Counted from the first letter of the stretch, positions 6,336-44,397 are shown. The stretch is DNA of 64,000 bases from Candidatus Zixiibacteriota bacterium (GCA_024280215.1 JAJRQO010000036.1:1-64000), one strand, 5' to 3'. Notes: generated from the sequence alone by a model not told the origin. A program made the numbers and translations.

Positions 6336-6358
6336 ATGTGTAAGTTCGTTACTATTTT

Positions 6359-8974: not shown

Positions 8975-9121
8975 AATGACGACTCCTATGTCAATCTAAT
9001 ATTTTCAATAAAATAATATACGACTATAAGGGTCATCTTGTTACAAATTTCTTCTATCTATACGATGTTTTATTTAGTATGAATTTCCACTCTTCAGAGG
9101 TATGTATTACATCAACTGTTC

Positions 9122-19512: not shown

Positions 19513-19519
19513 AAGTATG

Positions 19520-20857: not shown

Positions 20858-20918
20858 TCAGTTTTCATAAAAAACCTATCTGTCAAAAACAGGTTAGTAT
20901 CTTTTCTATTATTCTCTC

Positions 20919-23033
20919 TTAAAACTTATCGGATAATTTTTCAAGGACTTCATGAAACAATGGTACTAATCTCTGTTTTGAATGTCGCCCAGATTCAAAT
21001 TGTGTCATGTAGAATACATGGTTGAGCCAGGATAATTGCATCGAAACTCCTAATTCATCTAAATCTGTATCCAAAAGTTCAAGAGTCTTCTCAATATTTA
21101 ACTTTGATGAAAAATTGTCTAACTTTTTGTCAAGAATCGCAATAATAGCATCAGACCAAAAGATGTTGTTTCTATATCTGCTATAAGATAATAAAAATTC
21201 TGAAAAGTTTTTGGATTTACATGGAGATAAACTGGTTTCATCAAAATCTATAATCCCACTTACCCGTAATCCATCGACTAAAATATTACTCATCGAAAAA
21301 TCAGATTTTCTCAGATACAACTGCTTATCAACTTTACTTAATGAGTGCAAGATATTACTGGTGATTTTTTCATAGACATTTTTTTGCAAGTCTGTTTGTA
21401 AAAATAATTTAAGATAGTTAAATTTATCTTTGTATTCATTTAGTAAAATAGAATTTTTAGTCTGTTCAAAATGTATTTGATTAAACTCTTTGAAAATCAA
21501 AGGAAGTTCTTTGAGTGCATCAGAATCTATGGAATGATTTCCTTTGAGAGTTACCCCTACGCAACCAGTTTCAACAAAATATTTTTGTCCGTTGTATTCA
21601 CTTGCTAATATTGGTTTAGGTAATATTTTTGAGAGATATACAAATGTTTTTCTGTCTTTTATTTTATCTTGAAGCATTTGTAAATATTTAAAATTATTTA
21701 TAAGTGGTTCTTCTACTTTTTTTGTAATAGGGACTTTGATAACATAAAAAATTTCTTTCTTTTTGATTTCTTCAACAAAAATTGTAAGCTTCTCTTTTTG
21801 ATTTGACTTAATTGTTTTAATCTGAAACTCATTTGCGTGAAGATTTTTCTTATGTAAAAAGTCATCAACAACAGCTTCTACCCAAGGTTTGGATGAGTTA
21901 GAACCTGAACCGATATAGCCATACGATGCTATAGTTTTTTTGTATAACCAATTAGGTAAATATTGTGCGAATAAGTCATTTGACAATCTTTGTACTTCAA
22001 TTTCATCTTTTTTATCTAAATTGAAAATATTATTAGGTGTGCGATACATCGGTTCTAAGCCATAACATTTTTTATGTTTAAAACCAACCTCTCGAACAAG
22101 CTTTGCCATCCTTTTTTCACTATAAGTAAAAGTCAGATATGGATGATGAGATTTTAAAATTGAAACTACATGAGCCACCAAGCGAGGGTAGAGCGAGCCA
22201 AACCAGATAAATGAATGATGGTCTGGTCGTTGGCCAAAGTACAAACGTGAATATCTGTTTTCAATTCCAATATACATTTCACCGTCATCTTTTAAGACAC
22301 GACGCATCTCTTTCAAAAACCGTTTTTGAATCTCACGGGGGTCATGAGAACCGTATACTTCTGACAGAAAAGAGAAAAACTTTAATAGTTTATTTTGATG
22401 TTGATATTTTTTTTCAATCTGTGACCAGTCAGATGCCACCCATTCTAATACCCCATTGATATAAATAGTATCAAAGGTATTATCTTTAAACGGAAGGTAG
22501 GGTCTGTCTCCACCACAAAAGAGATCAATATTTTCAATCCCGTAATATTTTTTCTTTAAAGCCAAAATTTGTATTCGTTCTTTTGTCAGGTCAATAGCAG
22601 TAACTTTTTTAGCTGTTCGTGCTAAATTGATAGTTGTATTATCCCATCCTGAACCAAAATTGAGTACATGGGCATCAGGGTTTAAGCTGGTGAGATATTT
22701 GTAGACAGCTCGACTCTCATCAACAAGGTTGTCGATCCATTCTCTTTTTTGATTATTATTTGGAATTTTTTCAAGAATTTCTATTAGTAAAGATTCCCAT
22801 TCTGACGGATCCGAATTTACTTTCTGATAATATTCATCTAATTTTTGAGAGAGCCATTCTTTTTTAGTAGGGCAATAATAGAAATTTTTATTTTTTAAAA
22901 AGATCGGTATACCGTAACTTGTTTCATATTCTACAGAACATTTTTGGCAAGTTAAAGATGTGTCGCTAGCCTGTAACTCTCCTTTACATTCAGGACAAAT
23001 AATATAGGTGGATAACATAGCTGTCTTTTTCAT
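20919..23033 (-). CDS. Zinc-ribbon SAM methyltransferase fused to an APH-like kinase domain
   Basis: This is a large three-part protein. An N-terminal Trm112-like zinc ribbon (C-P-E-C and C-Q-K-C) is followed by a class I methyltransferase domain (about residues 120-300) with motif I L-N-F-G-S-G-W and acidic D-L-T. A phosphotransferase domain of aminoglycoside-kinase type fills about 400-690. In its catalytic loop K-S-D-F-S-M-S-N the Asp and Asn are kept but the usual H-G before the Asp is replaced; I-D-F-D-E supplies the metal-binding Asp. An upstream in-frame TTG at 23054 is less likely than the ATG at 23033, because it would leave only about a dozen bases after the promoter. It probably modifies a sugar in the glycan locus by methylation and phosphorylation. 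Confidence 0.75.
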   Translation of the reverse strand: MKKTAMLSTYIICPECKGELQASDTSLTCQKCSVEYETSYGIPIFLKNKNFYYCPTKKEWLSQKLDEYYQKVNSDPSEWESLLIEILEKIPNNNQKREWIDNLVDESRAVYKYLTSLNPDAHVLNFGSGWDNTTINLARTAKKVTAIDLTKERIQILALKKKYYGIENIDLFCGGDRPYLPFKDNTFDTIYINGVLEWVASDWSQIEKKYQHQNKLLKFFSFLSEVYGSHDPREIQKRFLKEMRRVLKDDGEMYIGIENRYSRLYFGQRPDHHSFIWFGSLYPRLVAHVVSILKSHHPYLTFTYSEKRMAKLVREVGFKHKKCYGLEPMYRTPNNIFNLDKKDEIEVQRLSNDLFAQYLPNWLYKKTIASYGYIGSGSNSSKPWVEAVVDDFLHKKNLHANEFQIKTIKSNQKEKLTIFVEEIKKKEIFYVIKVPITKKVEEPLINNFKYLQMLQDKIKDRKTFVYLSKILPKPILASEYNGQKYFVETGCVGVTLKGNHSIDSDALKELPLIFKEFNQIHFEQTKNSILLNEYKDKFNYLKLFLQTDLQKNVYEKITSNILHSLSKVDKQLYLRKSDFSMSNILVDGLRVSGIIDFDETSLSPCKSKNFSEFLLSYSRYRNNIFWSDAIIAILDKKLDNFSSKLNIEKTLELLDTDLDELGVSMQLSWLNHVFYMTQFESGRHSKQRLVPLFHEVLEKLSDKF

Positions 23034-23071
23034 TTTACCATTTATGGAAAGCAATTTTGAGTTTAAAATAT

Positions 23072-23100
23072 ATTATATTCGTTATTCAATATATCGACAA
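23072..23100 (-). promoter_or_regulatory. Promoter of the methyltransferase-GT4-flippase operon
   Basis: On the minus strand TTGTCG (23100-23095), a 17-base spacer and a perfect TATAAT (23077-23072) lie about 40 bases before the ATG at 23033. Confidence 0.5.
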
Positions 23101-23310
23101 AAAAATAACACTATACACTATTACACTTCATAAAGTAAAGTAACTGTATTGTGTTCAAAAGGCAAGATTCTTATATGGTGCATTCATCAAATTTCACTAT
23201 ATTTATAATATTCTAATTTTCTTCACGTAAAAACAATATAAAATTAGTTGAAGGGTCTTAAAAAATGTATCATAATACATTACAAATCAATATTGAAACT
23301 GGAGATATAC

Positions 23311-23724
23311 ATGATAATTGACCATATTGGCATAGTAGTAAAAAATATTGAAAAAGGGATTGAGCATTGGAAATCTGTTTTTGGTTATAGTCAGATGACC
23401 AAAATAGTTACAAATAGTCGACAAAAAGTCAAAGTTGTTTTTCTTTCAAAAGAGAACTCAACTCTAATTAAATTGATTGAACCATCTTCAGAAGATTCTA
23501 CAATTTTTATGTATGCGAGAAAAGGTGGCGGGTTGCATCATCTTTGTTTTAAGTGTGATAATATGCAGGAACAATTAGACCTTTTTGAATCTCAACGTAT
23601 TCGGATACTCTCTGAACCGCAACCTGGTGAAGCATTTGATAATGAAAATATTGCTTTTTTATACGCTAAACATGGTTTAAATATTGAATTAATAGATACT
23701 GACAGAAAAGCCAGTATGTTATAA
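23311..23724 (+). CDS. VOC-family (glyoxalase / methylmalonyl-CoA epimerase-like) protein
   Basis: The 137-residue protein has two beta-alpha-beta-beta-beta modules. It opens I-I-D-H-I-G-I-V-V (metal ligand H5) and has G-L-H-H-L-C-F near residue 72 and the C-terminal N-I-E-L-I, whose Glu is a likely ligand. The pattern is closest to methylmalonyl-CoA epimerases, but VOC proteins in surface-polysaccharide loci often have other substrates. The ATG at 23311 has GGAG at good spacing; an upstream TTG at 23248 has no ribosome site. It is a plus-strand gene convergent with, and only 3 bp from, the acyltransferase at 23728. Confidence 0.75.
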   Translation: MIIDHIGIVVKNIEKGIEHWKSVFGYSQMTKIVTNSRQKVKVVFLSKENSTLIKLIEPSSEDSTIFMYARKGGGLHHLCFKCDNMQEQLDLFESQRIRILSEPQPGEAFDNENIAFLYAKHGLNIELIDTDRKASML

Positions 23725-23727
23725 ACA

Positions 23728-24300
23728 TCAGCTTTCAGAGCTTTCTTCTGTTTCTTTTTTCTCTCTTTTACCAATAAAACGAGCAGGATTTCCAGCTAAA
23801 ATCGAGTAAGGAGGAAATTTTTTTGCTCCAACAACAGCACCAGCAGAGATAATACATCCATCACCAAGCTCTGCACCAGGCATAATAAAGACATTGGCAC
23901 CAACCCATACTCGTTTTCCAATAATAACTTTTTTAAAATCATATCCTTGTTTATAGACCGCAATTTCAGGGTCTTCAAACCGATGATTTTGGCTCCAAAC
24001 ACTTACGTTAGGTCCAAAACAGGTTTCATCGCCTATTTCGATACCTCCACCAGCTTGGTAAAAATTATCTACCCCCAATATGACTCCATCACCGATATCA
24101 AGGTTTTCGATATTATTGATTCTCAAACCAGTCCCTATAATAATATCTCTGCCAACTTTACCAAACCGTTTTGACAAAACAGATTTTCGGATTGCAAAAC
24201 CAGATTGACCGGGAAGATTTCGAATAAAGAAAAACCTCATCCGAAAACGACCTTCTTTAGTTAACATTTCGCGAAGTAATAATCTAAAATAACGATACAT
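23728..24300 (-). CDS. Hexapeptide-repeat O-acyltransferase (LbH fold)
   Basis: The 190-residue left-handed beta-helix acyltransferase has hexapeptide repeats from about residue 55 to 165 (I-G-T-G-L-R-I, I-G-D-G-V-I-L, I-G-D-E-T-C-F, I-G-K-R-V-W-V-G and G-A-V-V-G). W-S-Q-N-H-R-F carries the catalytic His, and P-Y-S-I-L-A-G-N-P-A-R ends the fold, as in maltose/galactoside and WbbJ-type acetyltransferases. It probably adds an acetyl group to a sugar of the glycan. The frame is open further upstream, but the ATG at 24300 with AAAGG before it fits the family start. Confidence 0.85.
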   Translation of the reverse strand: MYRYFRLLLREMLTKEGRFRMRFFFIRNLPGQSGFAIRKSVLSKRFGKVGRDIIIGTGLRINNIENLDIGDGVILGVDNFYQAGGGIEIGDETCFGPNVSVWSQNHRFEDPEIAVYKQGYDFKKVIIGKRVWVGANVFIMPGAELGDGCIISAGAVVGAKKFPPYSILAGNPARFIGKREKKETEESSES

Positions 24301-24505
24301 ACGATAACCTTTAAAATTTATTGTAATTTTAGTTCTTATTTCAATATATCGACAGAGGGTGTCAAAAATCAACATCAAAGTCACTACCAGCCTAACAAAA
24401 TTTAAAAACTTTCTTGTGATAAATGCGGAAATCTTTTCCCCTTAAAAGTTCACCAATTCACCCCATGATTTATATGCAGATTTCTCACCAATGAACCGAT
24501 AATAC

Positions 24506-24533
24506 TTGACATAGCCATAAGATAGGCTAAAAT
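24506..24533 (+). promoter_or_regulatory. Sigma70-type promoter of the main exopolysaccharide operon
   Basis: A perfect TTGACA (24506-24511), a 16-base spacer and TAAAAT (24528-24533, five of six matches) lie 33 bases upstream of the epimerase ATG. The ten following genes have gaps of at most 67 bases or overlap, so this promoter probably serves 24567-35867. Confidence 0.7.
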
Positions 24534-24566
24534 TAAGATAACTTCATACTTTGAAAAAATGGACAG

Positions 24567-25523
24567 ATGCCAAATTTTATATGCATAACAGGTGGGGCTG
24601 GTTTTATCGGTTCTCATGTCACAGAAAGACTTCTTGCCGAAGGTCACAAAATCACGGTCATTGATAATTTTAATGACTTTTATGACCCCGCAATCAAAAG
24701 AAAAAACATTGAGCCATTTCTTGCTCATGAAAATTTCAGACTCTTTGAGACTGATATCAGAAACAAAATTGAAATTGAAGCAATTTTTGCAAAGCAAAAA
24801 TTCGATGAACTGATACACCTTGCCGCCATGGCTGGTGTCCGACCATCTATTGAAGACCCTGTCTTGTACAATGACATCAATCTTATCGGTACTATGAATT
24901 TACTTGAAGCATGCCGTAAAAATGATATTAAAAAATTGATATTCGCATCATCGTCATCGGTCTACGGGAATAATAAAAAAGTTCCATTCTCAGAGTTAGA
25001 CCCTGTTGATAATCCGATTTCACCATATGCCTCAACAAAAAAATCTGGCGAACTTATGGTCTACACCTATCATCACTTGTATAATATCAAGTCAGCCTGT
25101 TTACGATTTTTTACTGTCTATGGTCCAAAACAACGCCCTGAAATGGCGATACATCTTTTTACCGATAAGATTTATAACGGTCAAGAGATTCAGATGTTTG
25201 GTGATGGTGCCTCTATGCGTGATTATACATTTGTGGAAGATATTGTTGACGGTATTTTAAGTTGTCGAACTGCTGAATATGGCTATGAAGTTTTTAATCT
25301 CGGACGTTCTGACACAATTAAACTTGCTGAATTAATCTCAAAGATTGAAACAAAATTAGGAAAAAAAGCAAATATAAAAAGATTAAAATTACAACCTGGT
25401 GATGTTGACAAAACATTTGCCGATATTTCTAAAGCAAAAAAGATTTTACAATATAACCCCAAAGTCTCTATAGATGAAGGGTTAGATACATTCATAGATT
25501 GGTATATTAAAAACAAAGGATAA
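24567..25523 (+). CDS. UDP-glucuronate 4-epimerase-like NAD-dependent epimerase
   Basis: The 318-residue extended short-chain dehydrogenase has the NAD-binding G-G-A-G-F-I-G-S-H at residues 9-17, S-S-S-S-V-Y-G around 131, and the catalytic Y154-x-x-x-K158. The stretch I-D-N-F-N-D-F-Y-D-P and K-R-K-N near residue 40 is typical of UDP-glucuronate 4-epimerases, which interconvert UDP-GlcA and UDP-GalA. The next gene, 3 bp downstream, makes UDP-glucuronate, which supports this substrate. First gene of the exopolysaccharide operon. Confidence 0.88.
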   Translation: MPNFICITGGAGFIGSHVTERLLAEGHKITVIDNFNDFYDPAIKRKNIEPFLAHENFRLFETDIRNKIEIEAIFAKQKFDELIHLAAMAGVRPSIEDPVLYNDINLIGTMNLLEACRKNDIKKLIFASSSSVYGNNKKVPFSELDPVDNPISPYASTKKSGELMVYTYHHLYNIKSACLRFFTVYGPKQRPEMAIHLFTDKIYNGQEIQMFGDGASMRDYTFVEDIVDGILSCRTAEYGYEVFNLGRSDTIKLAELISKIETKLGKKANIKRLKLQPGDVDKTFADISKAKKILQYNPKVSIDEGLDTFIDWYIKNKG

Positions 25524-25526
25524 GAA

Positions 25527-26834
25527 ATGAATATATGTGTTGTCGGAACTGGTTATGTAGGATTAGTAGCTGGAACCTGTCTCTCAGATTTTGGAATGCA
25601 CGTCATTTGTGTAGACAAAGATAAATCAAAAATCGATATGCTTAACAACGGCGAAGTTCCAATTTATGAAATCGGCTTAAAAGAACTAATCGAACGAAAT
25701 GTAAATCTTGAACGTCTGAGTTTTACAACTGACTTAAAAATGGCTATCGACCGTTCGCTTTGTATTTTCTTAGGCGTAGGTACTCCTGAGAATGAAGATG
25801 GTACAGCAAATCTACAATATATATTTGATGTTGCCGATGATATAGCAGATTCTATGAATGATTATAAAGTAATTGTCATCAAAAGCACTGTACCTGTTGG
25901 TACTGCTCAAAAATTACGAGAGCATATTAAAAAACGTCTCAAAAAAGATATTGATTTCGATATTGTCTCAAACCCAGAGTTCCTTCGAGAGGGTTCTGCT
26001 ATCAACGATTTTCTACGACCTGACCGTGTGGTTATAGGTTCCAACTCTGAAAAAGCATTAGCGATTGTTCGTGATGTCTACCGTCCTCTTTATCTACTTG
26101 AGACACCGATTGTCAGTACCTCAAATGAAACAGCCGAACTTATCAAGTATGCATCCAACACGATGCTTGCTCTTAAAATTTCATTCATAAATGAGATGGC
26201 AAACCTCTGCGATAAAGTTGGCGGTGATGTCTACCAAGTTGCAACTGCTATGGGTATGGACAAGCGTATCGGTTCAAAATTTTTGCACCCTGGACCTGGC
26301 TATGGCGGTTCCTGTTTCCCAAAAGATGTATCAGCACTCGCAAAAGTTGCCGAACAATACGACTATGATTTTAAAATTTCAAAAGCAATCATTGAAGTAA
26401 ATAAATTACAAAAAGAAAATGTTGTAAAAAAATCTGAGACATTGCTTGGAACGCTTAAAGACAAAAAGATTTGTTTGCTCGGTTTAGCGTTTAAACCAAA
26501 CACTGATGATGTCCGCGAAGCACCTGCTCTTTACGCAGCAAAACGGATGATGGAAGAAGGAGCGACAATCAACGCTTACGATCCTGTCGCTATGGAAGAA
26601 GCCAAAAAAGATATCGACGGTATCAACTATTTTAAAGATGCCTATTCTGCCTGTGAAGATGTCGATTTGGTCATTATCATGACTGAATGGAATGAATTTA
26701 GAGATTTACAGTTTGCTCGTATCAAAGATACGATGAAAGCACCAAATGTCTATGACACTCGCAATATTTATAATGCTAAGACTATTTCCGACCTTGGCTT
26801 TAACTATATCTGCACAGGCAGACCTGTAAAATAA
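25527..26834 (+). CDS. ugd: UDP-glucose 6-dehydrogenase
   Basis: The 435-residue enzyme oxidises UDP-glucose to UDP-glucuronate with two NAD. The N-terminal NAD site is V-V-G-T-G-Y-V-G-L-V-A-G (about residues 5-16). The catalytic C263 lies in G-Y-G-G-S-C-F-P-K-D, and L-G-L-A-F-K-P-N-T-D-D-V-R-E-A-P marks the UDP-binding domain near residue 322. Length and motifs are typical. A good ribosome site (AAGGA) precedes the ATG. With the upstream epimerase it supplies uronic acids, so the polymer is probably acidic. Confidence 0.95.
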   Translation: MNICVVGTGYVGLVAGTCLSDFGMHVICVDKDKSKIDMLNNGEVPIYEIGLKELIERNVNLERLSFTTDLKMAIDRSLCIFLGVGTPENEDGTANLQYIFDVADDIADSMNDYKVIVIKSTVPVGTAQKLREHIKKRLKKDIDFDIVSNPEFLREGSAINDFLRPDRVVIGSNSEKALAIVRDVYRPLYLLETPIVSTSNETAELIKYASNTMLALKISFINEMANLCDKVGGDVYQVATAMGMDKRIGSKFLHPGPGYGGSCFPKDVSALAKVAEQYDYDFKISKAIIEVNKLQKENVVKKSETLLGTLKDKKICLLGLAFKPNTDDVREAPALYAAKRMMEEGATINAYDPVAMEEAKKDIDGINYFKDAYSACEDVDLVIIMTEWNEFRDLQFARIKDTMKAPNVYDTRNIYNAKTISDLGFNYICTGRPVK

Positions 26835-26849
26835 GAAGTAACTAATGTT

Positions 26850-28226
26850 ATGGATATATTCAAACCGTTTGCAAAATATTGTTTAGATCCGCTCTTAGCG
26901 TTTCATGAAGGTAGTTCTCATCCAGAGTATTTAGAAGAGTATGAGAAGACACAGTTTATGACAAAAGAGAAAATTGCTGAAAGGCAATTGTTTCTTTTAA
27001 AGAATCTGCTGATTCATGCTTATAAAAATTGTCCATTCTACACGGAACGGTTTGACACCTTTGATTTTAATCCTTATCAGTTGAATGCTCTTTCTGATAT
27101 AAAAAAATTACCCGTCCTAACCAAACAAGATATTCAACAAAATCTTGAAAATATTATAGCGTCCAATTATTCAATGGAACAACTTTCGCTCAATCAAACT
27201 GGTGGTTCGACTGGTTCGCCTCTCAAATTTTATGTCGATTTAGAACGGCTACAATCTCGCAAAGCGTCAACCTATCGTCACGATAGATGGACAGGCTGGG
27301 ATATTGGTGTTAAGACTGCAGTTCTGTGGGGACATCAAAGAGATTTTTTACCACAACAAAACTGGAAAAACAAAATCAGAGACGATTATTACGAACGAAA
27401 ACTTTTCTTGGATACATCTAATATATCAGCAGACAAGATGAAATCATTTGTCTCACAATTGATTCACTTTCAACCAGAAATATATCTTGCCTACGCCAAT
27501 TCAGTTTATTTGTATGCGCGTTATCTCAAAGAGAACAATATCACAGATTATAACCGACCACATGCTATTATAACATCTGCCGAGGTTCTCACACCTGTAC
27601 AACGCACTCTGATAGAGGAAGTTTTCGAGTGCAAAGTTTTTAATCGCTACGGCTGCCGCGAAACATCTATCATCGCCTCTGAATGTTCGGCACATAACGG
27701 AATGCATATTTCATCTGAGACGCTTTTTCTTGAATTTCAAAACAATGGGGAAGATATCGCTACTGGAGAAACAGGTAAAATCATCATCAGTGATCTTCTC
27801 AACTATGGTATGCCTCTTATCCGTTACCAAATTGAAGATGCCGGCACACCACTTGACGGTGACTGCCTATGTGGGCGGACACTTCCACGAATGGACATTA
27901 CTGGTGGACGAATAACTGATTTTTTGGTGACCTCAGAAAGAAAAGTGATTTCGGGAGCATCGATGACGATTTATTTTATTGCAGTCATAGATGGAATCGC
28001 TCAGGCACAAATTATACAAAACTCTCTTGATAATTTGACGTTAAACATCGTAAAAAGCCTTCATTTTTCAGATAAAACTGAAATTGAAATAAAAGAAAAA
28101 ATCGCTCAATACTTTGGTGTATCGATGAAATATACAATTGAATACAAAGACCAAATTAAGTCTACTGCTTCTGGCAAATATCGTTTTTCAATTTCCCATA
28201 TTGACCCTATGGAATTTTTAAGCTAA
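26850..28226 (+). CDS. CapK/PaaK-type adenylate-forming enzyme, copy 1
   Basis: The 458-residue member of the phenylacetate-CoA ligase-like branch of adenylate-forming enzymes has the P-loop N-Q-T-G-G-S-T-G-S-P near residue 115 and the Y-G-C-R-E-T adenine-binding motif near 268. Zinc-binding-type cysteines occur as S-E-C-S-A-H and D-C-L-C-G-R, followed by D-I-T-G-G-R-I-T-D-F. Such proteins (CapK, coenzyme-F390-synthetase-like) are common in capsule loci. They presumably activate an acid for transfer, but the substrate is unknown. It is paralogous to the gene at 29743, on the other side of the O-antigen ligase gene. Confidence 0.82.
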   Translation: MDIFKPFAKYCLDPLLAFHEGSSHPEYLEEYEKTQFMTKEKIAERQLFLLKNLLIHAYKNCPFYTERFDTFDFNPYQLNALSDIKKLPVLTKQDIQQNLENIIASNYSMEQLSLNQTGGSTGSPLKFYVDLERLQSRKASTYRHDRWTGWDIGVKTAVLWGHQRDFLPQQNWKNKIRDDYYERKLFLDTSNISADKMKSFVSQLIHFQPEIYLAYANSVYLYARYLKENNITDYNRPHAIITSAEVLTPVQRTLIEEVFECKVFNRYGCRETSIIASECSAHNGMHISSETLFLEFQNNGEDIATGETGKIIISDLLNYGMPLIRYQIEDAGTPLDGDCLCGRTLPRMDITGGRITDFLVTSERKVISGASMTIYFIAVIDGIAQAQIIQNSLDNLTLNIVKSLHFSDKTEIEIKEKIAQYFGVSMKYTIEYKDQIKSTASGKYRFSISHIDPMEFLS

Positions 28227-28293
28227 TTTTTAAATAGGTCACAAAATAACTGCTTGGTATATTATGACAAAGGTAACAAAATAAGATAAAGCT

Positions 28294-29730
28294 ATGCATA
28301 ACTCATCGAAAAATATTATTACTAATAAGCACATTTTCTATATATCTGTTGTGCTTATTTCTATCGCATCTGGTTTTGCTCTTTCCCTTCCCGCTCCGTA
28401 TAATTTGATTCCATTTGGTGTTATACTCGGTGCTGTCTTCATGATTACGACATTTAAATATCCAATGGTTGGCGTTTATCTCTATATGTTTATATTTTTC
28501 TTCCGCCCACAAGAATGGACACCAATACAACTCCCCTACGAAAAAGTTATTGCCCTTGTCATTATTATGACTCTGCTCATGCATATAACATTTCGAGATA
28601 AAAAGTTTGACTTGTTTCAAATTGATAAAGCACTCTTGGCATTTATGGCAGTTTGTTTTGTATCTATTATTTTTTCAGGTGACATTATGTATTCATGGGA
28701 TGTCTTTTTTGAATTCTTTAAAATATTTTTGGTTTATGTCTTTGCTTCAAGGATTGCCAACACACCAAAACGGTTTAACTCAATCATCTGGCTATTTGTT
28801 CTTTCGCAGGTTTTCTTAGCGGTCTCAACTTCATATAACTACTACACAGGCGGAGCTCAACTCAGTATGGGAATTGACAGAGCAACTGGGCTTGCTGGTG
28901 CCGATGGTGCCTACTCCGATGCAAACTCGGTAGCTAATTCATTAGTTCTGGGTATACCGTTTATATATTTTCTCATGAAATTCCATAAATCAACACTTAT
29001 GAAGCTTTTTCTTATAGGAGTATTAGGTATTACTTGCTGGACAATTATCATAACTGGTTCTCGTGGCGGTATGGTTGGGGTTATTATTATTTCAATGCTC
29101 TTAGCATACACGACAAAATATAGAACGATTTCAACGATAGGTGCAATAGGACTTCTTGCTGTATTTATCGTATTCATGCCGAGCCAATACCGAGAACGTT
29201 TTTCAACAATTTTTCATATCTATGAAGAAGATGGCTCAGGAGCGGCTGAGTCGGCACAAGGTCGTATTGATGGATTGGTAAAAGGTGTCGTCTTTATGTC
29301 GCAAAAACCAGTCTTTGGGTGCGGTATCGGTTCCTTTAAATGGGAAAACAGACAGCAGTACGGAATATGGCTCGATGCCCACAATATGCTCGGTAAACTT
29401 ATGGGAGAACTTGGTCTAATGGGACTCCTGACTTTTGGGTTTTTCTTATATATAATTTTTAAGACCCTTCAAATGATAAAATATATCTATCATAAATATG
29501 AGTGGGAATATGATTTTGAACGAGCTATGATTGACGGCATTAGCTATTCGTTTATAATGCTTGCATTCCAAGGGCTTATTGGGCATAATCTCTTTCGATT
29601 TAATTGGTATATATATGCTTGTTTTGTTGTCATTATAACTATGATAGTAAATCAACGAATAGAAATGGCTAAACTTGCCGAAAAGATAGAACAACCTATA
29701 GACCTTGAAGTTATTGAGAAAAATACATAA
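28294..29730 (+). CDS. O-antigen ligase / polymerase (Wzy_C family) membrane protein
   Basis: The 478-residue protein has about ten to twelve membrane helices. A periplasmic loop after about residue 255 begins with G-S-R-G-G-M-V and carries the Wzy_C signature A-H-N-M-L-G-K-L-M-G-E-L-G-L-M-G around residue 363. Enzymes of this family polymerise flipped repeat units or attach polymer to lipid or protein. Some members occur specifically with exosortase A systems, which fits the nearby exosortase and EpsI. Confidence 0.88.
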   Translation: MHNSSKNIITNKHIFYISVVLISIASGFALSLPAPYNLIPFGVILGAVFMITTFKYPMVGVYLYMFIFFFRPQEWTPIQLPYEKVIALVIIMTLLMHITFRDKKFDLFQIDKALLAFMAVCFVSIIFSGDIMYSWDVFFEFFKIFLVYVFASRIANTPKRFNSIIWLFVLSQVFLAVSTSYNYYTGGAQLSMGIDRATGLAGADGAYSDANSVANSLVLGIPFIYFLMKFHKSTLMKLFLIGVLGITCWTIIITGSRGGMVGVIIISMLLAYTTKYRTISTIGAIGLLAVFIVFMPSQYRERFSTIFHIYEEDGSGAAESAQGRIDGLVKGVVFMSQKPVFGCGIGSFKWENRQQYGIWLDAHNMLGKLMGELGLMGLLTFGFFLYIIFKTLQMIKYIYHKYEWEYDFERAMIDGISYSFIMLAFQGLIGHNLFRFNWYIYACFVVIITMIVNQRIEMAKLAEKIEQPIDLEVIEKNT

Positions 29731-29742
29731 CGGAGAATTTCA

Positions 29743-31104
29743 TTGAGTTTTTATTCAAACATATTACGAAAGACTGCTCTACCATTTTTGCTTTCGAGAG
29801 AGAAACAGTTACCTACACTTGAGCATTTTTCATTTTTGCAAAAAAGTCAGTTCTGGTCAACCGATAAACTTCTTGATTTTCAATGGGCATGTCTCAAAAA
29901 ACTTTTACAGGAAAGTTACGACAATACAATATACTATCGCACCGTTATGGACGAACGAGGATTGACTCCTGACTCATTTAAGTCATTTGATGATATAAAA
30001 AAATTACCCATTCTCACAAGAGAGATAACATTTGACAAACAGGCAGAGTTTTTTTCAAATAAATTCCTTAAATCTTCGCTTCAAGAATTCACCTCAGGTG
30101 GAACAACTGGCCAACGAGCAACTCTCTTTCGTAATCAACAAAGTTTTAATATCAAACTTGCGATGGCATGGCGACACGAAACCTGGATGGGTCGTTTCCC
30201 ATGTGAAAAGATGGCTCTCATTTGGCCAGCTGCAATGGATTTTGTCGATGACGAACCATTTAAAACAAAATTTAAAAATCGCTATCTTCATAGACAAATT
30301 ATGTACAATGCGGGTGGGCTTGATGCCGAGTCATTAAATTTTATCAACAAAGATTTACTCAAATTTAACCCGTCATATATAAAATGTTTCCCATCGGCTC
30401 TTTTTGGATATACTGAATATTGCAATGAACATAATTTAATTCAACCAGCATGTAAAGCAATCCTCTCAACTGGCGAACCTCTTTCTGTTAATCAGAAAAA
30501 ACTTTTTGAACAAACTTATAAATGCCCAGTGTTTGACATGTATGGCTCACGAGAAGTTGGCAATACTTCATCAGAATGTGAAGAGCATGACGGGATGCAT
30601 ATCGCCATGGAAACTTCTTATGTTGAATTTGTACAAGACAACAAAGAAGTCGAGTACAGTACCGAGGGTGAAATGCTTATTACAGATTTAACAAATTTCG
30701 CCTTTCCTCTTATACGATATGCGATAAATGACTACGGTATCCCTATGAAAGAGCCATGTAAGTGTGGTAGAGGATTAGTGCGTATGGATAAAGCATTGGG
30801 AAGGTTGTCTGATGTTCTTTATAAACAAGATGGTACAAAAGTTCTCTCTCATATATTAGGTATCGCCCTGACTATGGAAGGTCCACCTATTGGACAGATG
30901 CAATTTATTCAGAAAACTTATACCGATTTTGTAGTAAAAATTACAAACAAGCCAGAGCCAACCCAGGAAATTTTTGATTTTATCAATAAAGAAATGAAAT
31001 TGTTATTAGGTGATTCACTCAATATAGTTATTGAAGTTGTCGATAAAATACCTAAAGAAAAATCTGGGAAATTCAGATTTGTAAAATGTGAAATTGCCAA
31101 ATAA
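29743..31104 (+). CDS. CapK/PaaK-type adenylate-forming enzyme, copy 2
   Basis: The 453-residue paralogue of the gene at 26850 shares the same architecture: an N-terminal helical part, P-loop-like F-T-S-G-G-T-T-G-Q-R near residue 115, Y-G-S-R-E-V-G near 267, S-E-C-E-E-H-D-G-M-H, P-C-K-C-G-R and D-K-A-L-G-R-L-S-D-V, and a C-terminal lid ending K-S-G-K-F-R-F. The start is TTG with GGAG upstream. The two copies are clearly diverged, so they may activate different acids or act on different acceptors. Confidence 0.82.
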   Translation: MSFYSNILRKTALPFLLSREKQLPTLEHFSFLQKSQFWSTDKLLDFQWACLKKLLQESYDNTIYYRTVMDERGLTPDSFKSFDDIKKLPILTREITFDKQAEFFSNKFLKSSLQEFTSGGTTGQRATLFRNQQSFNIKLAMAWRHETWMGRFPCEKMALIWPAAMDFVDDEPFKTKFKNRYLHRQIMYNAGGLDAESLNFINKDLLKFNPSYIKCFPSALFGYTEYCNEHNLIQPACKAILSTGEPLSVNQKKLFEQTYKCPVFDMYGSREVGNTSSECEEHDGMHIAMETSYVEFVQDNKEVEYSTEGEMLITDLTNFAFPLIRYAINDYGIPMKEPCKCGRGLVRMDKALGRLSDVLYKQDGTKVLSHILGIALTMEGPPIGQMQFIQKTYTDFVVKITNKPEPTQEIFDFINKEMKLLLGDSLNIVIEVVDKIPKEKSGKFRFVKCEIAK

Positions 31105-31122
31105 GCAAGCGGAAGTAAATTG

Positions 31123-32310
31123 ATGAAAATACTAATTATAGATGAAGAGTTTCCATATCCACTTAATTCAGGCAAACGTTTGCGTACAAGTAATCTTACC
31201 TATGAATTAGCATTGACCAACGATGTATCATATTTGGCTTTTGGTGATATTGCAAGCGAAGCAGCAAAGCATTTTAAATCAAAAAATATTCAACCTATAG
31301 CAGTCACCCCAATCAATAATAAGAAATCTGGTCTTTCATTTTATCTCAAACTTATGACCAATCTGTTTTCGTCGGAACCATATATTGTGACATCGCATTA
31401 CTCATCTGAATTTGAAACACAACTGCTCAAACTTATCAATGAACAAAAATTTGATGTGATTATCTGTGAATGGACACCATACGCTCAGTATGTTAAAAAT
31501 ATTACAAAATCAAAATCAATTATAGTTGCTCACAATATCGAATCAGATATTTGGAAACGTTACTATGAAAACGAAAGTAACCCTCTCAAAAGATTTTACA
31601 TTGGGCTGCAATACAAAAAAGTATTAAACTTTGAAAAAAATTGTTTTAAATGGGTTGATGGTGCCACAGCAGTCTCATCGATTGATGCATCATTTATTAA
31701 AAAACTCAATTTACCATACACTCCAGCAATAATCGAAAATGGTGTCGATACCGACTTTTTTACACCGTCTGATACAACTCCACTCCCACATCGTTTAGCT
31801 TTTACAGGCTCGATGGACTGGCGACCAAATCAAGATGCTGCTGAGTTTTTTGCCTCGGAGATTTTACCACTTTTAAAAAAATCTATACCAGATATTGAAG
31901 CATATTTTATCGGAAGGAACCCTCCCCCTCATATTAAAGAGCTCAACAAGATTGACGGTATCACAATAACTGGTATGGTCGATGATGTTCGTACATATAT
32001 TGCTGATGGAAGTTTGTATATCGTCCCGCTCCGTATCGGTGGTGGTTCACGGTTAAAGATACTTGAAGCGATGGGAATGAAAAAACCAATTATCTCAACA
32101 TCGGTTGGTGCTGAAGGTCTTGAAGTAACAGATTTACATGACATATTAATAGCAGATACACCACAAGAATTTTGTGATACGATATTAAAAGCTTTAAAAG
32201 ACAAGGCTCTCTGTGACAAAATTGCTAAAAATGGTTTTTCATTAGTGCATGAAAAATACAAGTGGAGTTCTATCGGCAAAAAGCTGAACAAATATTTATC
32301 CGAGTTATAA
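31123..32310 (+). CDS. GT4 glycosyltransferase, exosortase-system-associated type
   Basis: The 395-residue GT-B enzyme has the N-terminal domain L-I-I-D-E-E-F-P-Y-P-L-N-S-G-K-R, A-H-N-I-E-S near residue 140, and the C-terminal nucleotide-binding half with F-T-G-S-M-D-W-R-P-N and R-I-G-G-G-S-R-L-K-I-L-E-A-M-G. This last pattern is characteristic of the sugar transferases found with PEP-CTERM/EpsH systems (TIGR03087-like). The ATG at 31123 is preferred to the TTG one codon earlier. It probably adds one sugar of the repeat unit. Confidence 0.87.
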   Translation: MKILIIDEEFPYPLNSGKRLRTSNLTYELALTNDVSYLAFGDIASEAAKHFKSKNIQPIAVTPINNKKSGLSFYLKLMTNLFSSEPYIVTSHYSSEFETQLLKLINEQKFDVIICEWTPYAQYVKNITKSKSIIVAHNIESDIWKRYYENESNPLKRFYIGLQYKKVLNFEKNCFKWVDGATAVSSIDASFIKKLNLPYTPAIIENGVDTDFFTPSDTTPLPHRLAFTGSMDWRPNQDAAEFFASEILPLLKKSIPDIEAYFIGRNPPPHIKELNKIDGITITGMVDDVRTYIADGSLYIVPLRIGGGSRLKILEAMGMKKPIISTSVGAEGLEVTDLHDILIADTPQEFCDTILKALKDKALCDKIAKNGFSLVHEKYKWSSIGKKLNKYLSEL

Positions 32311-32313
32311 CCT

Positions 32314-33450
32314 ATGCTAATCGATAAAAAGAAACTATCAATTCTGCATCTTCGTGCTTCCAATTTTTATGGAGGTCCCGAACGTCAATTGCATTATCAT
32401 GCCAAGCATGCACAAGCCGAGAACTGTCATGTGGTAATATCATCGTTCACAGAGAACAATCAATCACCAGAATTTATCAGACGGATTTCAGAAGACAACA
32501 TCCCTACCCATACATTTGAAGTTGACTCTGCCTATGACCGCTCTGCAATACAAAAGATAAAAACATATTTGCAAGAGAACAATATCGATATTATCTGCAC
32601 TCATGATTATCGTACACATTTTTATGGAATGTTTGCGACAAAAAATATAGAAACAAAATGGATTGCGTTCTCTCGTGGTATGACAAAAGAGAATATAAAA
32701 ATAAAACTGTTTACGTTTTTTGAAAAATATATCATAAAGAAAGCAGACTATCTGGTTGCAGTATCAGAATCTCAAAAACAAAAACTTATTACACAGGGTA
32801 TTGATGAGAATAAAATCAAAACGGTACATAATGCAATTGATGTTAGCTTAGTTGATAATATTAAACCAATTTCGTTACATAAACAGTTTCATCTTCCGAA
32901 TGATTCTATTGTTTTGATTAGTGGAGGACGATTTTCTACTGAAAAAGGTCAGATTGATTTTGTCAAGGCTGCCAAAATTGCTCTTGAACAAAACAGTAAA
33001 CTAAGATTTGTACTCTTTGGTGATGGACCTGATTTGGAAAAAATCAATACCTATATTGACACAAACAATCTCAACGAATATATAATCTGTCCTGGATTTG
33101 AAAAATCTATATTAAGTTATATTCAATCAGCCGATATATTGGTCAATCCATCGCTCTCTGAAGGACTTCCTAATATTGTTTTAGAATCGATGGCATCTGA
33201 AACTCCTGTCATAGCAACCAATGTTGGCGGATTGGCTGAAATAATCGTCTCTAACAAAAGCGGTATTTTAGTACCATCGCAAGATTGTGCTGCTTTGGCA
33301 AGTGCAATAATTTCTTTAACTACCGATAAGGATATGAAAGAGAAATTTAAATTAAATGGTCGACAAACAATTATTGATTCATTTAATTTTAAAAGCCAAA
33401 ACCAAAAACTCATAAAACTTTATAACAGGGTTGCTACTAAAAATGCCTGA
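32314..33450 (+). CDS. GT4 glycosyltransferase
   Basis: The 378-residue GT-B-fold protein has an N-terminal F-Y-G-G-P-E-R-Q-L donor-proximal glycine-rich loop near residue 18. S-G-G-R-F-S-T-E-K-G begins the C-terminal domain, and the E-x7-E motif lies in S-E-G-L-P-N-I-V-L-E-S-M-A. It lies 3 bp after the previous glycosyltransferase and overlaps the next by 8 bases, so all three are coexpressed. Donor and acceptor cannot be read from sequence. Confidence 0.88.
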   Translation: MLIDKKKLSILHLRASNFYGGPERQLHYHAKHAQAENCHVVISSFTENNQSPEFIRRISEDNIPTHTFEVDSAYDRSAIQKIKTYLQENNIDIICTHDYRTHFYGMFATKNIETKWIAFSRGMTKENIKIKLFTFFEKYIIKKADYLVAVSESQKQKLITQGIDENKIKTVHNAIDVSLVDNIKPISLHKQFHLPNDSIVLISGGRFSTEKGQIDFVKAAKIALEQNSKLRFVLFGDGPDLEKINTYIDTNNLNEYIICPGFEKSILSYIQSADILVNPSLSEGLPNIVLESMASETPVIATNVGGLAEIIVSNKSGILVPSQDCAALASAIISLTTDKDMKEKFKLNGRQTIIDSFNFKSQNQKLIKLYNRVATKNA

Positions 33451-34582
33451 ACCGATTAAAATTGCATATATTATTGACACCCTGGAGACACCATCAGCAG
33501 GTACTGAAAAACAACTGCTCTATTTGCTTAATGGTTTGAACAGAGACAAGGTCTCACCATACTTGGTCTGTTTTTATCAATCAGAATGGATGAAGACACA
33601 AACATTTGAGTTTCCAGTTTATTATTTAAATTTACGAAGTTTTTTATCTTCTGATATTTTTAAAGCATACAAGCTTTTTAAGACATTACATATGACACAA
33701 CAATTCGATATAGTGCAAACATTTTTTAAAGATGGAAATATATTTGGAACTTCAGCGGCACATTTTGCGAAAGTTCCTGTCATAGTCTCGAGCAGACGTA
33801 ACATCGGTTATTGGCACAATAAACTGCAGATTACTATTTTACGATTTCTGCAAAAATGGACGACTCACTATTTAGCTAACTCCCAAGCAGCAGTTGATAT
33901 GACAATGGACATTGAACAAGCTCATAACGATAAATTTAAAATTATCTATAATGGTCTTGATCTCAAACAATTTGAATCTGTTGAGCGTACAATTACAATG
34001 ACTCAGAGAGAACAATGGAATTGCTGTGAACAAGATATTATCATTGGTGTAGTTGCCAACTTACGTCCAGTAAAAAGACTTTATACAGTTGTAGAATCGG
34101 CAAAAGAACTAACAAAAAAATATAAAAATCTTAAATTTGTATTTATCGGCGAGGGCTCTGATCGTGAATCACTTGAGACTCTTATAGAGAGTTATAATCT
34201 TTCAGAACACTTTATTCTCCCAGGTGCCTCCCAAGAGATACCAGCGATTCTTTCTGCTTTTGATATAGCAGTACTGCCATCATCAAACGAATCATTTTCA
34301 AACTCCCTCATAGAGTACATGGCATCGGAACTACCAATAGTAGCAACTAAAATAGGTGGTAACTCAGAAGCAATCGAACATAATCAAAACGGACTTTTAT
34401 ATACTTTAGAAGATGAAAATGGTCTTACCGAATCTCTTAAAATAATATTGGACAACAAAGAAAAAGCACAAGCTCTTGCAGGACAAGCAAAAGAAAAAGC
34501 ATTCTCTGAGTATTCAATTGAAAAAATGATTTCAAATCATGAAAATTTTTACCAATCAATAAAGTTGCGAGGTTCATTTTGA
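33443..34582 (+). CDS. GT4 glycosyltransferase
   Basis: The 379-residue GT-B-fold enzyme has P-S-A-G-T-E-K-Q-L as N-terminal loop, V-A-N-L-R-P-V-K-R at the start of the C-terminal domain, and S-S-N-E-S-F-S-N-S-L-I-E-Y-M-A as the E-x7-E region, where the first Glu is kept and the second aligns with the E of I-E-Y. The ATG at 33443 overlaps the preceding stop by 8 bases; an in-frame TTG lies 12 bases earlier. This is the third consecutive glycosyltransferase in the operon. Confidence 0.86.
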   Translation: MPEPIKIAYIIDTLETPSAGTEKQLLYLLNGLNRDKVSPYLVCFYQSEWMKTQTFEFPVYYLNLRSFLSSDIFKAYKLFKTLHMTQQFDIVQTFFKDGNIFGTSAAHFAKVPVIVSSRRNIGYWHNKLQITILRFLQKWTTHYLANSQAAVDMTMDIEQAHNDKFKIIYNGLDLKQFESVERTITMTQREQWNCCEQDIIIGVVANLRPVKRLYTVVESAKELTKKYKNLKFVFIGEGSDRESLETLIESYNLSEHFILPGASQEIPAILSAFDIAVLPSSNESFSNSLIEYMASELPIVATKIGGNSEAIEHNQNGLLYTLEDENGLTESLKIILDNKEKAQALAGQAKEKAFSEYSIEKMISNHENFYQSIKLRGSF

Positions 34583-41339: not shown

Positions 41340-41939
41340 TTATGAGGGCTTATTAGATGTAGGTAAAAGTCTGGCAGGATTTCCCATCGCCATATTATTG
41401 TCAGGTATATCATTGGTCACCACAGCACCAACGCCAATAATACAATTACTTCCTACCGAAGCCGAAACAATCGCTCCCTCACCAATCCAAGTTTTTTCAC
41501 CAATAGTGATTTGTCTGTTTGTTCCTTCACCTTCCCCATTTGAAATGTTTGATGAATTTCCATGTTGATGTAATCCCGAGGTTATAGACACTTTACTTGC
41601 AATTCGAACAGATTCTTTTATCTCAACCAATCCTATGACACAATAAGCACCAATCCCAGCGTAGGCTTGTATTTTTGCTCCACGCTTTGAAAAGAATGTC
41701 CCGTAACTAATTACAGCAGATGGATGACAATACTCAAGCGAAAGCATATAGTAAACTCGTCTGACATGGTCACCCACAAAACCAGGGAACAGTGCTACAA
41801 GATGAGCTCCAAAAGCAAAAAAATATTCATACGATGTCATCTGTTTTTCTAAAAAAGACATAACTCCGAAAGGAATAGTAAGAATTACTAATGGGAGTGA
41901 ACAAATCAATAAAATTAATTTACAAAGAATTTTAATCAT
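41340..41939 (-). CDS. Membrane-associated hexapeptide acyltransferase, paralogue 3
   Basis: The 199-residue homologue of the two acyltransferases at 34579 and 35214 shares the N-terminal membrane segment (about residues 5-27, then P-F-G-V-M-S-F-L). Its hexapeptide-repeat helix has Y-G-T-F-F-S-K, G-I-G-A-Y-C-V-I, G-L-H-Q-H-G (likely catalytic His) and I-G-E-K-T-W-I-G-E, ending M-A-M-G-N-P-A-R. It is the last gene of the carrier protein / ligase / GNAT operon, 15 bp after the GNAT gene. This copy may use an acyl or aminoacyl group delivered by that operon, which is an inference from position. Confidence 0.82.
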   Translation of the reverse strand: MIKILCKLILLICSLPLVILTIPFGVMSFLEKQMTSYEYFFAFGAHLVALFPGFVGDHVRRVYYMLSLEYCHPSAVISYGTFFSKRGAKIQAYAGIGAYCVIGLVEIKESVRIASKVSITSGLHQHGNSSNISNGEGEGTNRQITIGEKTWIGEGAIVSASVGSNCIIGVGAVVTNDIPDNNMAMGNPARLLPTSNKPS

Positions 41940-41954
41940 AGTTCTAATTCAATT

Positions 41955-42959
41955 CTAATAGACATCTAAATAAAAGGACTCTACCTCTTTGATACCATCT
42001 GTTAAGACACCTTCTTTGAGAGGAGCAATATACAAATTTAATTCACGTGGTGCTAAACGAAAACGGAATTTTTTATATATCGCCGTATCAACATAACCAA
42101 TGTTTGGCATAAAAGCAGTATGAAAATTGTCCTCTTGTAAAGCGAGCATAACATCACCAAGAAATTCTTCAATTTCATCTTCTGTCATGGAACCAAATGA
42201 AACATTGTCAAAATAGACATTCAAATTTTTCTCTTTATCAGATTCCAACACTTCAAGTAATAACAAGTTAATAAAACCTTTTAGCTGATTATCTTTTTCA
42301 TACACATAAGTTTTACAATGAGGTCGCTCTATAAGCAAAAATGGAATATCTTCATCAGGAACTTTTTTAAATAATTTTGTATTGACACCTATTGACTGCA
42401 TTAGTGGTTTTAAATTTACAACATCCTCAGACGATGCTTTCCGAGTATGTCCAGAAAGTGCTGAAGGTAAAATAGGCTTAACCAATTCATTGACTGCCGC
42501 AACATAACGACAAACATTGACAACTTTGACAGGCAAATTCATTCTTTTAAAAACTTTCTCAACGGCAATATTAGAAACTGCTCCAACTTCACACATTGTG
42601 ATATATAAATCATACCCTTTTTCAATCGCTTTTTCAATAAGCATCCCCTGTTGCGGACCGCCTAAACCTTGCCCCTGAAAATCGGCACCAACAGTCAGAA
42701 AACTTGCGAATACAGCTTTGTAGTCTTTATCATAATATGAAACATCAAATGGCATATATGCTTGAAATGACGCCATCCTTCCATCTTCCGCAACTTGAGC
42801 AACGTTAAGCTCTTTATCACCAGACGGTCTGTCAATATGCAAAGACAAAAGACCTTTATCATAATTCCAACATGGTTTCCCCCATGTCGTACAAATCAGA
42901 TCAGATATTTTTTCTAAGTCAGGTCCAAATTCAAATTTGTATCCTTTTGCTGGTTCCAT
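41955..42959 (-). CDS. GNAT-type acyltransferase in the aminoacyl-carrier operon
   Basis: The 334-residue protein has an N-terminal GNAT-like domain. The cofactor-binding stretch F-L-T-V-G-A-D-F-Q-G-Q-G-L-G-G-P lies at about residues 87-102, followed by the typical helix and Y-D-L-Y-I-T-M-C. The second half (about 175-320) may be another, degenerate GNAT module. It starts 2 bp after the stop of the carrier-protein ligase, so the pair is coexpressed. Known GNAT-fold proteins such as the FemX/L-F transferase relatives move aminoacyl groups, so this is the best candidate to transfer the loaded amino acid. Acetyl-CoA as donor cannot be excluded. Confidence 0.65.
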   Translation of the reverse strand: MEPAKGYKFEFGPDLEKISDLICTTWGKPCWNYDKGLLSLHIDRPSGDKELNVAQVAEDGRMASFQAYMPFDVSYYDKDYKAVFASFLTVGADFQGQGLGGPQQGMLIEKAIEKGYDLYITMCEVGAVSNIAVEKVFKRMNLPVKVVNVCRYVAAVNELVKPILPSALSGHTRKASSEDVVNLKPLMQSIGVNTKLFKKVPDEDIPFLLIERPHCKTYVYEKDNQLKGFINLLLLEVLESDKEKNLNVYFDNVSFGSMTEDEIEEFLGDVMLALQEDNFHTAFMPNIGYVDTAIYKKFRFRLAPRELNLYIAPLKEGVLTDGIKEVESFYLDVY

Positions 42960-42961
42960 AA

Positions 42962-44161
42962 TTATGCCCTTTCACCTAATAATTCTTCTGAAGCGATTTG
43001 TAATCTTTTCATCGCTTTCTTGTAGCCAATTTGTGCGTAAACAGCATAGACCAATCGTTCAAGTCCAAAAGCAGCACACCCCGTATGAACTTCACTTCCA
43101 TCAGTATTAGAGATAGAAAAATTTGCACCAAAGAAATTTTCATGATAATTAAATGATGCGGCTGCGATTGATTTTTCTTCTGAGACAAAAAGGTTCAATT
43201 CATATTTTAATTCATTGGCGAGTTGAAAGAATCTTAATGATTTAAATTCTGTTGAGAAAAATGGATCGGATGCTGTTTCAATTGAAGCTGTTAAATCCAA
43301 AATCTCTATCAGTCGCCAAATAATATCCATGCTTTCTTTTCTTGATGCGATAACTTTTTCTTTTTCTCCAACAAATATAATTTCCCGCATAGAAAATTCC
43401 CAGAGTCGGTCTAAGTCAGTTATGTTTTTTGATTCATACCTAAAACAACTTCCCTGAGCGGTGAATACTTTGAGACCATTGTCTGATTCATCAAATTTTA
43501 CACCTTCCAAAGCACCATAGGCATGATAACAAACAGCAGGTGAAAGACAAAATTCTGGGGTTGCGATTTCATCTATTGATTCTAATTTCAAATCTTGATT
43601 GTCACTATGTCTCTCCGCGAATGCATCTAACTTTTCTAAGTCTTCAACAAGGTGAAAAGCAAATGTCAATGAATGAGCAAATGAGGTAAAATATCCGGCA
43701 CGTTTTAACCAGTCAGATGGTACTAAGGTACTATAAGTACGAGGCTTCGCTTGGTATTGTAAAATGCCAAGTTTTTCAAAGAAGGCATCAAATGTCATTA
43801 GTAAATTTAAGAACTCGCCACCTTTAGCGATTACACCTGTTCCTTCTTTAAATATATCACCATTTTCACAAAGCATTTTGTAGACATTCGGATGATAACT
43901 ATTATCTTGACGAATTCTATCTTTAATAACTTTTGGTTGGACAACTAAACGTTCGCTTTTCATTTTATCAACAAGCTGATTGACTTTAACTTTGACACTC
44001 TCAAGTAGTTCAGGTTTTTCAATTTCAATGATAAGAGATTTTGATGGTTTGTCAAAAGCTGATGAGACAATTTGTACATCACAATAACAGGCTCTTTTAG
44101 CAATTTCTTTGCAAATGTCATCAGGTAATTTTTCAGAAAACTGAATTTCAAATTTTGTCAT
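42962..44161 (-). CDS. Seryl-tRNA-synthetase-like amino acid:[carrier protein] ligase
   Basis: The 399-residue class II synthetase-type catalytic domain lacks the long N-terminal tRNA-binding coiled coil of SerRS; instead there is a short extra domain (about residues 1-100). Motif 2 is C-F-R-Y-E-S (239-244) and motif 3 A-F-G-L-E-R (364-369). Likely zinc ligands are C211 in L-S-P-A-V-C-Y-H, E260 in M-R-E-I-I-F and C362 in H-T-G-C, with spacing like that of characterised amino acid:[carrier protein] ligases. These make an aminoacyl adenylate and load the amino acid, usually glycine or alanine, on a phosphopantetheinyl carrier. It overlaps the carrier-protein gene by 4 bases, which strongly supports this role. 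Confidence 0.85.
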   Translation of the reverse strand: MTKFEIQFSEKLPDDICKEIAKRACYCDVQIVSSAFDKPSKSLIIEIEKPELLESVKVKVNQLVDKMKSERLVVQPKVIKDRIRQDNSYHPNVYKMLCENGDIFKEGTGVIAKGGEFLNLLMTFDAFFEKLGILQYQAKPRTYSTLVPSDWLKRAGYFTSFAHSLTFAFHLVEDLEKLDAFAERHSDNQDLKLESIDEIATPEFCLSPAVCYHAYGALEGVKFDESDNGLKVFTAQGSCFRYESKNITDLDRLWEFSMREIIFVGEKEKVIASRKESMDIIWRLIEILDLTASIETASDPFFSTEFKSLRFFQLANELKYELNLFVSEEKSIAAASFNYHENFFGANFSISNTDGSEVHTGCAAFGLERLVYAVYAQIGYKKAMKRLQIASEELLGERA

Positions 44162-44397
44162 TTTGAATCCCTTACGAGTTCTATCAGTTTGGAAAGTGAT
44201 CGAGCCTGTATAAACTGATTATCATCGATAGCGATAGAAAAATTCTCTTCTAACGCTAATAAAATTGAAATAGAATTAACCGATTCAACTCCCAGCTCAG
44301 AATAGATATCACTTTCCGGCGAAATCTCACCATCAATTTTCCCAACCTCTTTTAAAATTTGTTTAATATCGTCAATTATTATTTTTTCAGTTTGCAC
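44158..44397 (-). CDS. Acyl/aminoacyl carrier protein
   Basis: The 79-residue acidic four-helix carrier protein has its phosphopantetheine site in L-G-V-E-S-V-N-S, so Ser39 is modified; the more usual sequence is D-S-L. The start is GTG with an AAGGGA ribosome site. Its stop overlaps the start of the amino acid:[carrier protein] ligase. It is too far from any fatty-acid or polyketide genes to be their carrier here. It is therefore probably the dedicated acceptor of the ligase, holding a thioester-bound amino acid for the GNAT-type transferase. Confidence 0.88.
   Translation of the reverse strand: MQTEKIIIDDIKQILKEVGKIDGEISPESDIYSELGVESVNSISILLALEENFSIAIDDNQFIQARSLSKLIELVRDSK

Follow-up and report, generated by a model that had tools for sequence, protein, structure and literature searches.

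Carrier-protein aminoacylation of surface glycans is already known as a category. In DltA-DltC and in Alm, the latter adding glycine to lipid A, Ala or Gly is loaded on a carrier protein in an ATP-dependent manner for the modification of a surface polymer (PMC3783018); these systems use an adenylating enzyme of the acyl-CoA-synthetase type and, as transferases, DltB/DltD or AlmG (LPLAT). The Bll0957 type of ligase (PRK07080; structures 4h2w and 3mf1) has a class II core like that of seryl-tRNA synthetase (SerRS), Zn ligands and a dedicated carrier gene nearby. Prokaryotes have been described as lacking N-myristoyltransferase (NMT) activity (PMC2852408). Here we analysed a stretch of 64,000 nucleotides from Candidatus Zixiibacteriota bacterium (GCA_024280215.1 JAJRQO010000036.1:1-64000), hereafter the window, which is part of contig 42 of a 3.03 Mb genome and in which a four-gene cassette combines a carrier protein and a SerRS-like amino acid:[carrier protein] ligase with a relative of eukaryotic NMT and a hexapeptide acyltransferase. 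On a narrow balance, it is probable that this cassette uses the carrier protein to make and deliver a small amino acid in N-acylated form, N-acylglycine being the most likely product.

The four genes lie on the minus strand in the order carrier protein (44158..44397, 79 aa, GTG start), SerRS-like ligase (42962..44161, 399 aa), NMT-like double-GNAT acyltransferase (41955..42959, 334 aa) and hexapeptide acyltransferase (41340..41939, 199 aa). The open reading frames of carrier and ligase overlap by 4 bases, the gap between the ligase and NMT-like genes is 2 bases and that before the hexapeptide gene 15 bases, exactly as an earlier note on this DNA had described. Pfam recognised PP-binding, a class II synthetase core, a weak GNAT match and the hexapeptide repeat in the four proteins, respectively. 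As the four-gene order is kept in six genomes of the phylum, the cassette is not a chance arrangement. It shares with Dlt and Alm the predicted loading of an amino acid on a carrier, but no N-acylation step is known in those systems, and the cassette has a SerRS-like ligase, an NMT-like enzyme and a hexapeptide enzyme instead. The ligase and carrier are of a known kind, whereas the presence of a bacterial NMT relative in an operon of this type appears, as far as our searches show, to be undescribed; no description was found in the open-licence literature, although an earlier report is possible.

The NMT-like enzyme

The earlier note called the product of the third gene a GNAT-type acyltransferase, which is too general, since profile search, Foldseek and model superposition all identified an NMT-fold double-GNAT protein. 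When a profile of 16 homologues was compared with the PDB, NMT was the top family (E 8e-9, profile positions 31-311), with both halves of the protein covered. The first 18 PDB matches of a phmmer search with the member from locus L016 were all NMTs (best 3.2e-4), and hmmscan of single members detected Pfam NMT (PF01233) in 9 of 16 (best 3.8e-5) and NMT_C (PF02799) in 4 (best 1e-4). As a control, another GNAT encoded near locus L028 gave no NMT match by the same search. The AlphaFold2 (AF2) model of the window protein was of high confidence (predicted local distance difference test, pLDDT, 93; predicted template modelling score, pTM, 0.90), and its top 50 structural matches were NMTs only (Foldseek E 6e-24). 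Superposed on human NMT (VIA Z 32.2, 2.2 Å over 306 residues), model residues 1-334 span human residues 150-496, that is, the double GNAT fold over the full length of the protein; identity to eukaryotic NMTs in the structure alignments was 13-18%, a level at which the direction of descent cannot be told. Taken together, it is well supported that the third cassette gene encodes a full-length relative of eukaryotic NMT. A direct search with PF01233 placed no cassette genome over the cutoff among the 61 searched and matched none of 14 control genomes; because the window genome was also unmatched, Pfam alone evidently misses this family. No NMT-like protein was found in a search of plasmids.

NMT uses its C-terminal carboxylate as the catalytic base to deprotonate the glycine amine, and its oxyanion hole is made up of the Phe247-Leu248 backbone; the donor side is adapted to long acyl-CoA, the amine side to glycine (PMC7048800). 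The C-terminal residue of our model, 334, falls on that of human NMT, 496, while the truncated human deltaC2 and deltaC3 structures align to model residues 332 and 331. The window protein terminates in SFYLDVY-COOH, and each of the 16 homologues in the alignment closes with D-V-[YF] at one common column. In the model, the C-terminal carboxylate is thus predicted to lie in register with the catalytic C-terminus of NMT. The position of the oxyanion pair is occupied by F87-L88 in the window protein and by F-F in proteobacterial members, and the coenzyme A (CoA) loop Q95xxG98xG100 (QxxGxG) is intact in the window protein. The full-length double GNAT fold, the oxyanion F-L and the C-terminal register are accordingly shared with eukaryotic NMT (PF01233/PF02799); the window protein differs in being bacterial, in its operon with a carrier and a ligase and in the replacement of Thr282 and Asn246.

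A tandem second NMT-like gene, its product 35% identical to the window protein, was observed in genome G003 (locus L024, 7385-9418 and 9415-10613), where the ligase gene carries an in-frame TAA close to its start.

The carrier protein and the SerRS-like ligase

The window carrier matches Pfam PF00550 (PP-binding) with 43.6 bits, and its Ser39 (context ELGVES39VNSI) is invariant across 13 aligned carriers; both results agree with the phosphopantetheine site proposed in the earlier note. It is 45-69% identical to the cassette carriers of relatives and 46-48% identical (three aligned) to carriers encoded elsewhere in proteobacterial cassette genomes. All nine of the latter genomes encode such a cassette-type carrier away from the cassette (E 5e-27 to 5e-31), while their other carriers match at about 1e-5 or weaker. 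In the distant proteobacterial family of genome G132, the cassette-type carrier is present in 16 of 18 genomes. Four proteobacterial genomes (G145, G147, G148 and G149) have this carrier and neither the ligase nor the NMT-like gene, which suggests either incomplete metagenome-assembled genomes (MAGs) or a carrier with another partner. A similarity to the AmcB (cispentacin) carrier was set aside, as the pathway concerned is a 2-oxoglutarate pathway (PMC10698177).

The best PDB matches of the ligase are chains of the Bll0957 glycine:[carrier protein] ligase of Bradyrhizobium (E 3e-27), followed by archaeal-type SerRS. Motif 2 reads FRYE and motif 3 GLERL. Residues C211, E260 and C362, put forward earlier as plausible Zn ligands, are invariant in 17 ligases and align with Cys131, Glu176 and Cys279 of Bll0957 (chain numbering minus an apparent 20-residue tag), the Zn ligands of that enzyme; both findings support the proposal. 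Against PRK07080 (NCBIfam) the ligase scored 139 bits, far below the cutoff of 357, and by sequence it is a relative rather than a member of this equivalog.

Comparison of a predicted structure with Bll0957 and SerRS confirmed the class II SerRS-like core. The AF2 model of the ligase (pLDDT 81, with the active-site region partly low) superposes on Bll0957 (4h2w) with Z 26.7 and 2.8 Å over 289 residues, but this covers only model residues 91-392, whereas with archaeal-type SerRS the superposition extends over model residues 1-392 (SerRS residues 103-511). As to the tRNA-binding arm, which the earlier note described as missing, the archaeal N-terminal domain has lost its first ~100 residues, while ligase residues 1-90 match part of the remainder. 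Judged from the model, the protein is a carrier-ligase relative in which, unlike in the Bll0957 type, a remnant of the archaeal domain persists, and not a bare catalytic core. A true SerRS was rejected as a reading, as much of that domain is gone, the carrier gene overlaps and Bll0957 is the best sequence match.

In the tree, the cassette ligases, including that of the window, form their own supported clade (97/99); the placement of the Streptomyces and Priestia ligases is unsure owing to long branches. On a plasmid of Streptomyces sp. NBC_01237 (L036, 21379-22629), we observed a long-form SerRS-like carrier ligase that is 32% identical along almost its entire length, including the N-terminal region; its gene has deoxysugar-type genes in the vicinity, one of them dTDP-glucose dehydratase-like, and no NMT-like gene was found at this locus. 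The plasmid loci of the Bll0957 type (L031, L032 and L033) contain genes for a carrier, an acyl-CoA dehydrogenase, the ligase and DUF1839, without NMT-like or hexapeptide genes. Because the neighbours differ, the biology of these plasmid operons cannot simply be carried over to the cassette. A glycoside hydrolase family 2 gene follows the canonical ligase operon in L032 and L033.

Co-occurrence of the cassette genes and a second setting

The ligase was found in 6 of the 132 genomes sampled from the phylum, always in the order carrier, ligase, NMT-like and hexapeptide gene, and the NMT-like profile matched exactly those six. Nine loci from MAGs labelled 'Proteobacteria' (L010-L017 and L019) have the ligase, NMT-like and hexapeptide genes with no adjoining carrier gene. 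In the G132 family, the NMT-like gene and the ligase are found in an identical set of 12 of 18 genomes, and among 369 genomes sampled evenly from the class the NMT-like gene was detected in G132 and G135 only, both belonging to this family. The chance of identical genome sets, ignoring kinship and linkage, is 1.5e-10 for the phylum and 5e-5 for the family. In addition, at all cassette loci examined the NMT-like gene is immediately followed by a hexapeptide gene. No ligase relative was found on viral contigs, and no cassette was seen at the loci of two weak profile matches (L097 and L098). Upstream of the proteobacterial cassette at L016, a conserved cluster (1548-9889) encodes one protein with weak similarity to the conjugation protein TrbI and others that Pfam does not recognise; it may be a secretion or conjugation system.

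A second setting is seen in the distant genome G611, which belongs to the same phylum as the 'Deltaproteobacteria' locus L021. Its NMT-like gene (profile E 7e-57) lies with genes for two carriers, an AMP-forming ligase over the TIGR03098 cutoff, a TIGR03099-like pyridoxal phosphate (PLP) decarboxylase, a hexapeptide enzyme and a flippase. Here the exosortase A-associated set (TIGR03098/TIGR03099) accompanies the NMT-like, carrier and hexapeptide genes, but with the AMP-forming ligase and the decarboxylase in place of the SerRS-like ligase. A search for the latter in G611 found none, although such an empty answer is weak evidence. The G611 protein has the same C-terminal end as the window protein and F-W at the oxyanion position; as phmmer with its single sequence gave no NMT match, its link to NMT rests on the profile and the C-terminus. 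The NMT-like enzyme thus recurs with a carrier and an adenylating enzyme as partners, and this speaks for a substrate that is bound to the carrier. That the activating enzyme is swapped in G611 while the logic of carrier, NMT-like and hexapeptide enzymes persists lends this independent support.

The proposed pathway, its alternatives and their meaning

In the pathway that we propose, the ligase would adenylate a small amino acid with ATP (glycine, by analogy) and load it on the phosphopantetheine of the carrier. The NMT-like enzyme would then bind an acyl thioester in its N-terminal GNAT half and, with the C-terminal carboxylate as base, acylate the amino acid on the carrier at its free amine, in the manner of NMT on an N-terminal glycine. 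Finally, the hexapeptide enzyme would take the N-acyl-aminoacyl group off the carrier and attach it, at the membrane, to a hydroxyl or amine, the acceptor probably being a lipid-linked surface glycan in the window lineage and a glycan or lipid generally. Amino acid activation on a carrier is strongly implied by the sequences, and the protein families fit the earlier proposal of a tRNA-independent activation onto a dedicated carrier with a linked transferase pair. The same note had a bare amino acid transferred to the acceptor; as the third gene encodes an NMT homologue, N-acylation before transfer is suggested instead, and homology, the C-terminal register and strict co-occurrence with the ligase all point to this step. 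We infer the acyl chain, the order of the steps and the end product, and the identity of the acceptor is a guess.

Several observations weigh against this pathway. The window protein alone does not reach Pfam NMT. Human Asn246 and Thr282 are replaced in it by S86 and E124 (V for Thr282 in proteobacteria), for which reason we call the protein NMT-like and do not file it as an NMT. The CoA loop is RRHRLS-like in proteobacterial members, so that the donor could differ. The preference for glycine would be borrowed from relatives of the ligase. Moreover, the hexapeptide enzyme (Pfam Hexapep, left-handed beta-helix, hydrophobic N-terminus) resembles maltose/galactoside O-acetyltransferases, which are acetyl-CoA-dependent sugar acetyltransferases, and may simply acetylate something.

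The evidence for a glycan acceptor comes from the surroundings of the cassette. A surface-glycan locus at 18031..34582 in the window encodes, by Pfam, a flippase, glycosyltransferases, an epimerase, a UDP-sugar dehydrogenase and a Wzy-like ligase, and could supply the acceptor. Two linked hexapeptide acyltransferases of the glycan operon (34579-35163 and 35214-35867, plus strand) are 29-30% identical over their length to the cassette enzyme, in line with the paralogy noted earlier. In another genus of the family (L027 and L028), the cassette adjoins orthologues of this locus in a different arrangement: UDP-sugar dehydrogenase (69-71% identity), epimerase (64-68%), glycosyltransferase (45-47%), a hexapeptide gene (52-54%) and two AMP-binding-like proteins (47-50%). 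The cassette is not near glycan genes in a third genus (L026, genome G060) or at the proteobacterial loci. The linkage is therefore real in part of the lineage, namely two genera, but is not general; the cassette does occur beside glycan genes, and the surface glycan is a candidate acceptor in these two genera. Two related proteins of the glycan locus (26850-28226 and 29743-31104) have no strong Pfam match and a weak AMP-binding similarity (2e-5, L028 orthologue); they are perhaps CapK/PaaK-like and another possible activation step in that locus. The glycan operon ends with a 397-aa protein (36042-37235) without a family match, and similar-looking proteins occupy the same place in L024 and L025.

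The linkage in two genera and the hexapeptide paralogues in the glycan operon would equally suit a direct aminoacylation of the glycan, with the NMT-like enzyme, the hexapeptide enzyme or both moving the bare amino acid to a sugar amine or hydroxyl, much as Dlt and Alm use carrier-bound Ala or Gly (PMC3783018). We consider this unlikely, as it leaves an NMT relative with a CoA loop and an NMT C-terminus unexplained and the cassette lies apart from glycan genes in L026 and proteobacteria. It is more doubtful still that the aminoacyl-carrier serves as the donor, its phosphopantetheine arm replacing CoA, and that the NMT-like enzyme aminoacylates a protein, lipid or amino sugar at an amine. Chemically, carrier and CoA have the same arm, the diphosphate loop for CoA is altered in proteobacterial members, and FemABX-type enzymes with a GNAT fold transfer amino acids (PMC4964394); nevertheless, the donor side of NMT suits long acyl-CoA and its amine side glycine (PMC7048800), and the QxxGxG loop of the window protein is intact. 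The cassettes without adjoining glycan genes in L026 and proteobacteria could also indicate a free N-acyl amino acid or a glycine-lipid-like product, O-acylated or released by the hexapeptide enzyme with no glycan involved, but the same glycan locus is linked in two genera despite its rearranged order and a flippase adjoins the G611 locus, which make this improbable. True bacterial N-myristoylation of N-terminal protein glycines, with the ligase a mere neighbour, would fit the strong NMT fold match, but is very hard to reconcile with the strict co-occurrence with ligase and carrier and the replacement of Thr282 and Asn246 in the peptide-amine site.

The proposed N-acylation on a carrier joins two questions in one operon, the end product of SerRS-like carrier ligases and the described lack of NMT activity in prokaryotes, and predicts a concrete product, an N-acyl-aminoacyl carrier. 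For the origin of eukaryotic NMT, the operon also offers a prokaryotic candidate relative whose genomic setting is defined. Tentatively, and with more doubt than confidence, we suggest that the bacterial NMT relative acts on carrier-tethered glycine to form N-acylglycyl thioesters for surface glycans and that this prokaryotic family is ancestral or parallel to eukaryotic protein N-myristoylation. If this is true, the glycine first lay on a carrier protein and not at a protein N-terminus.

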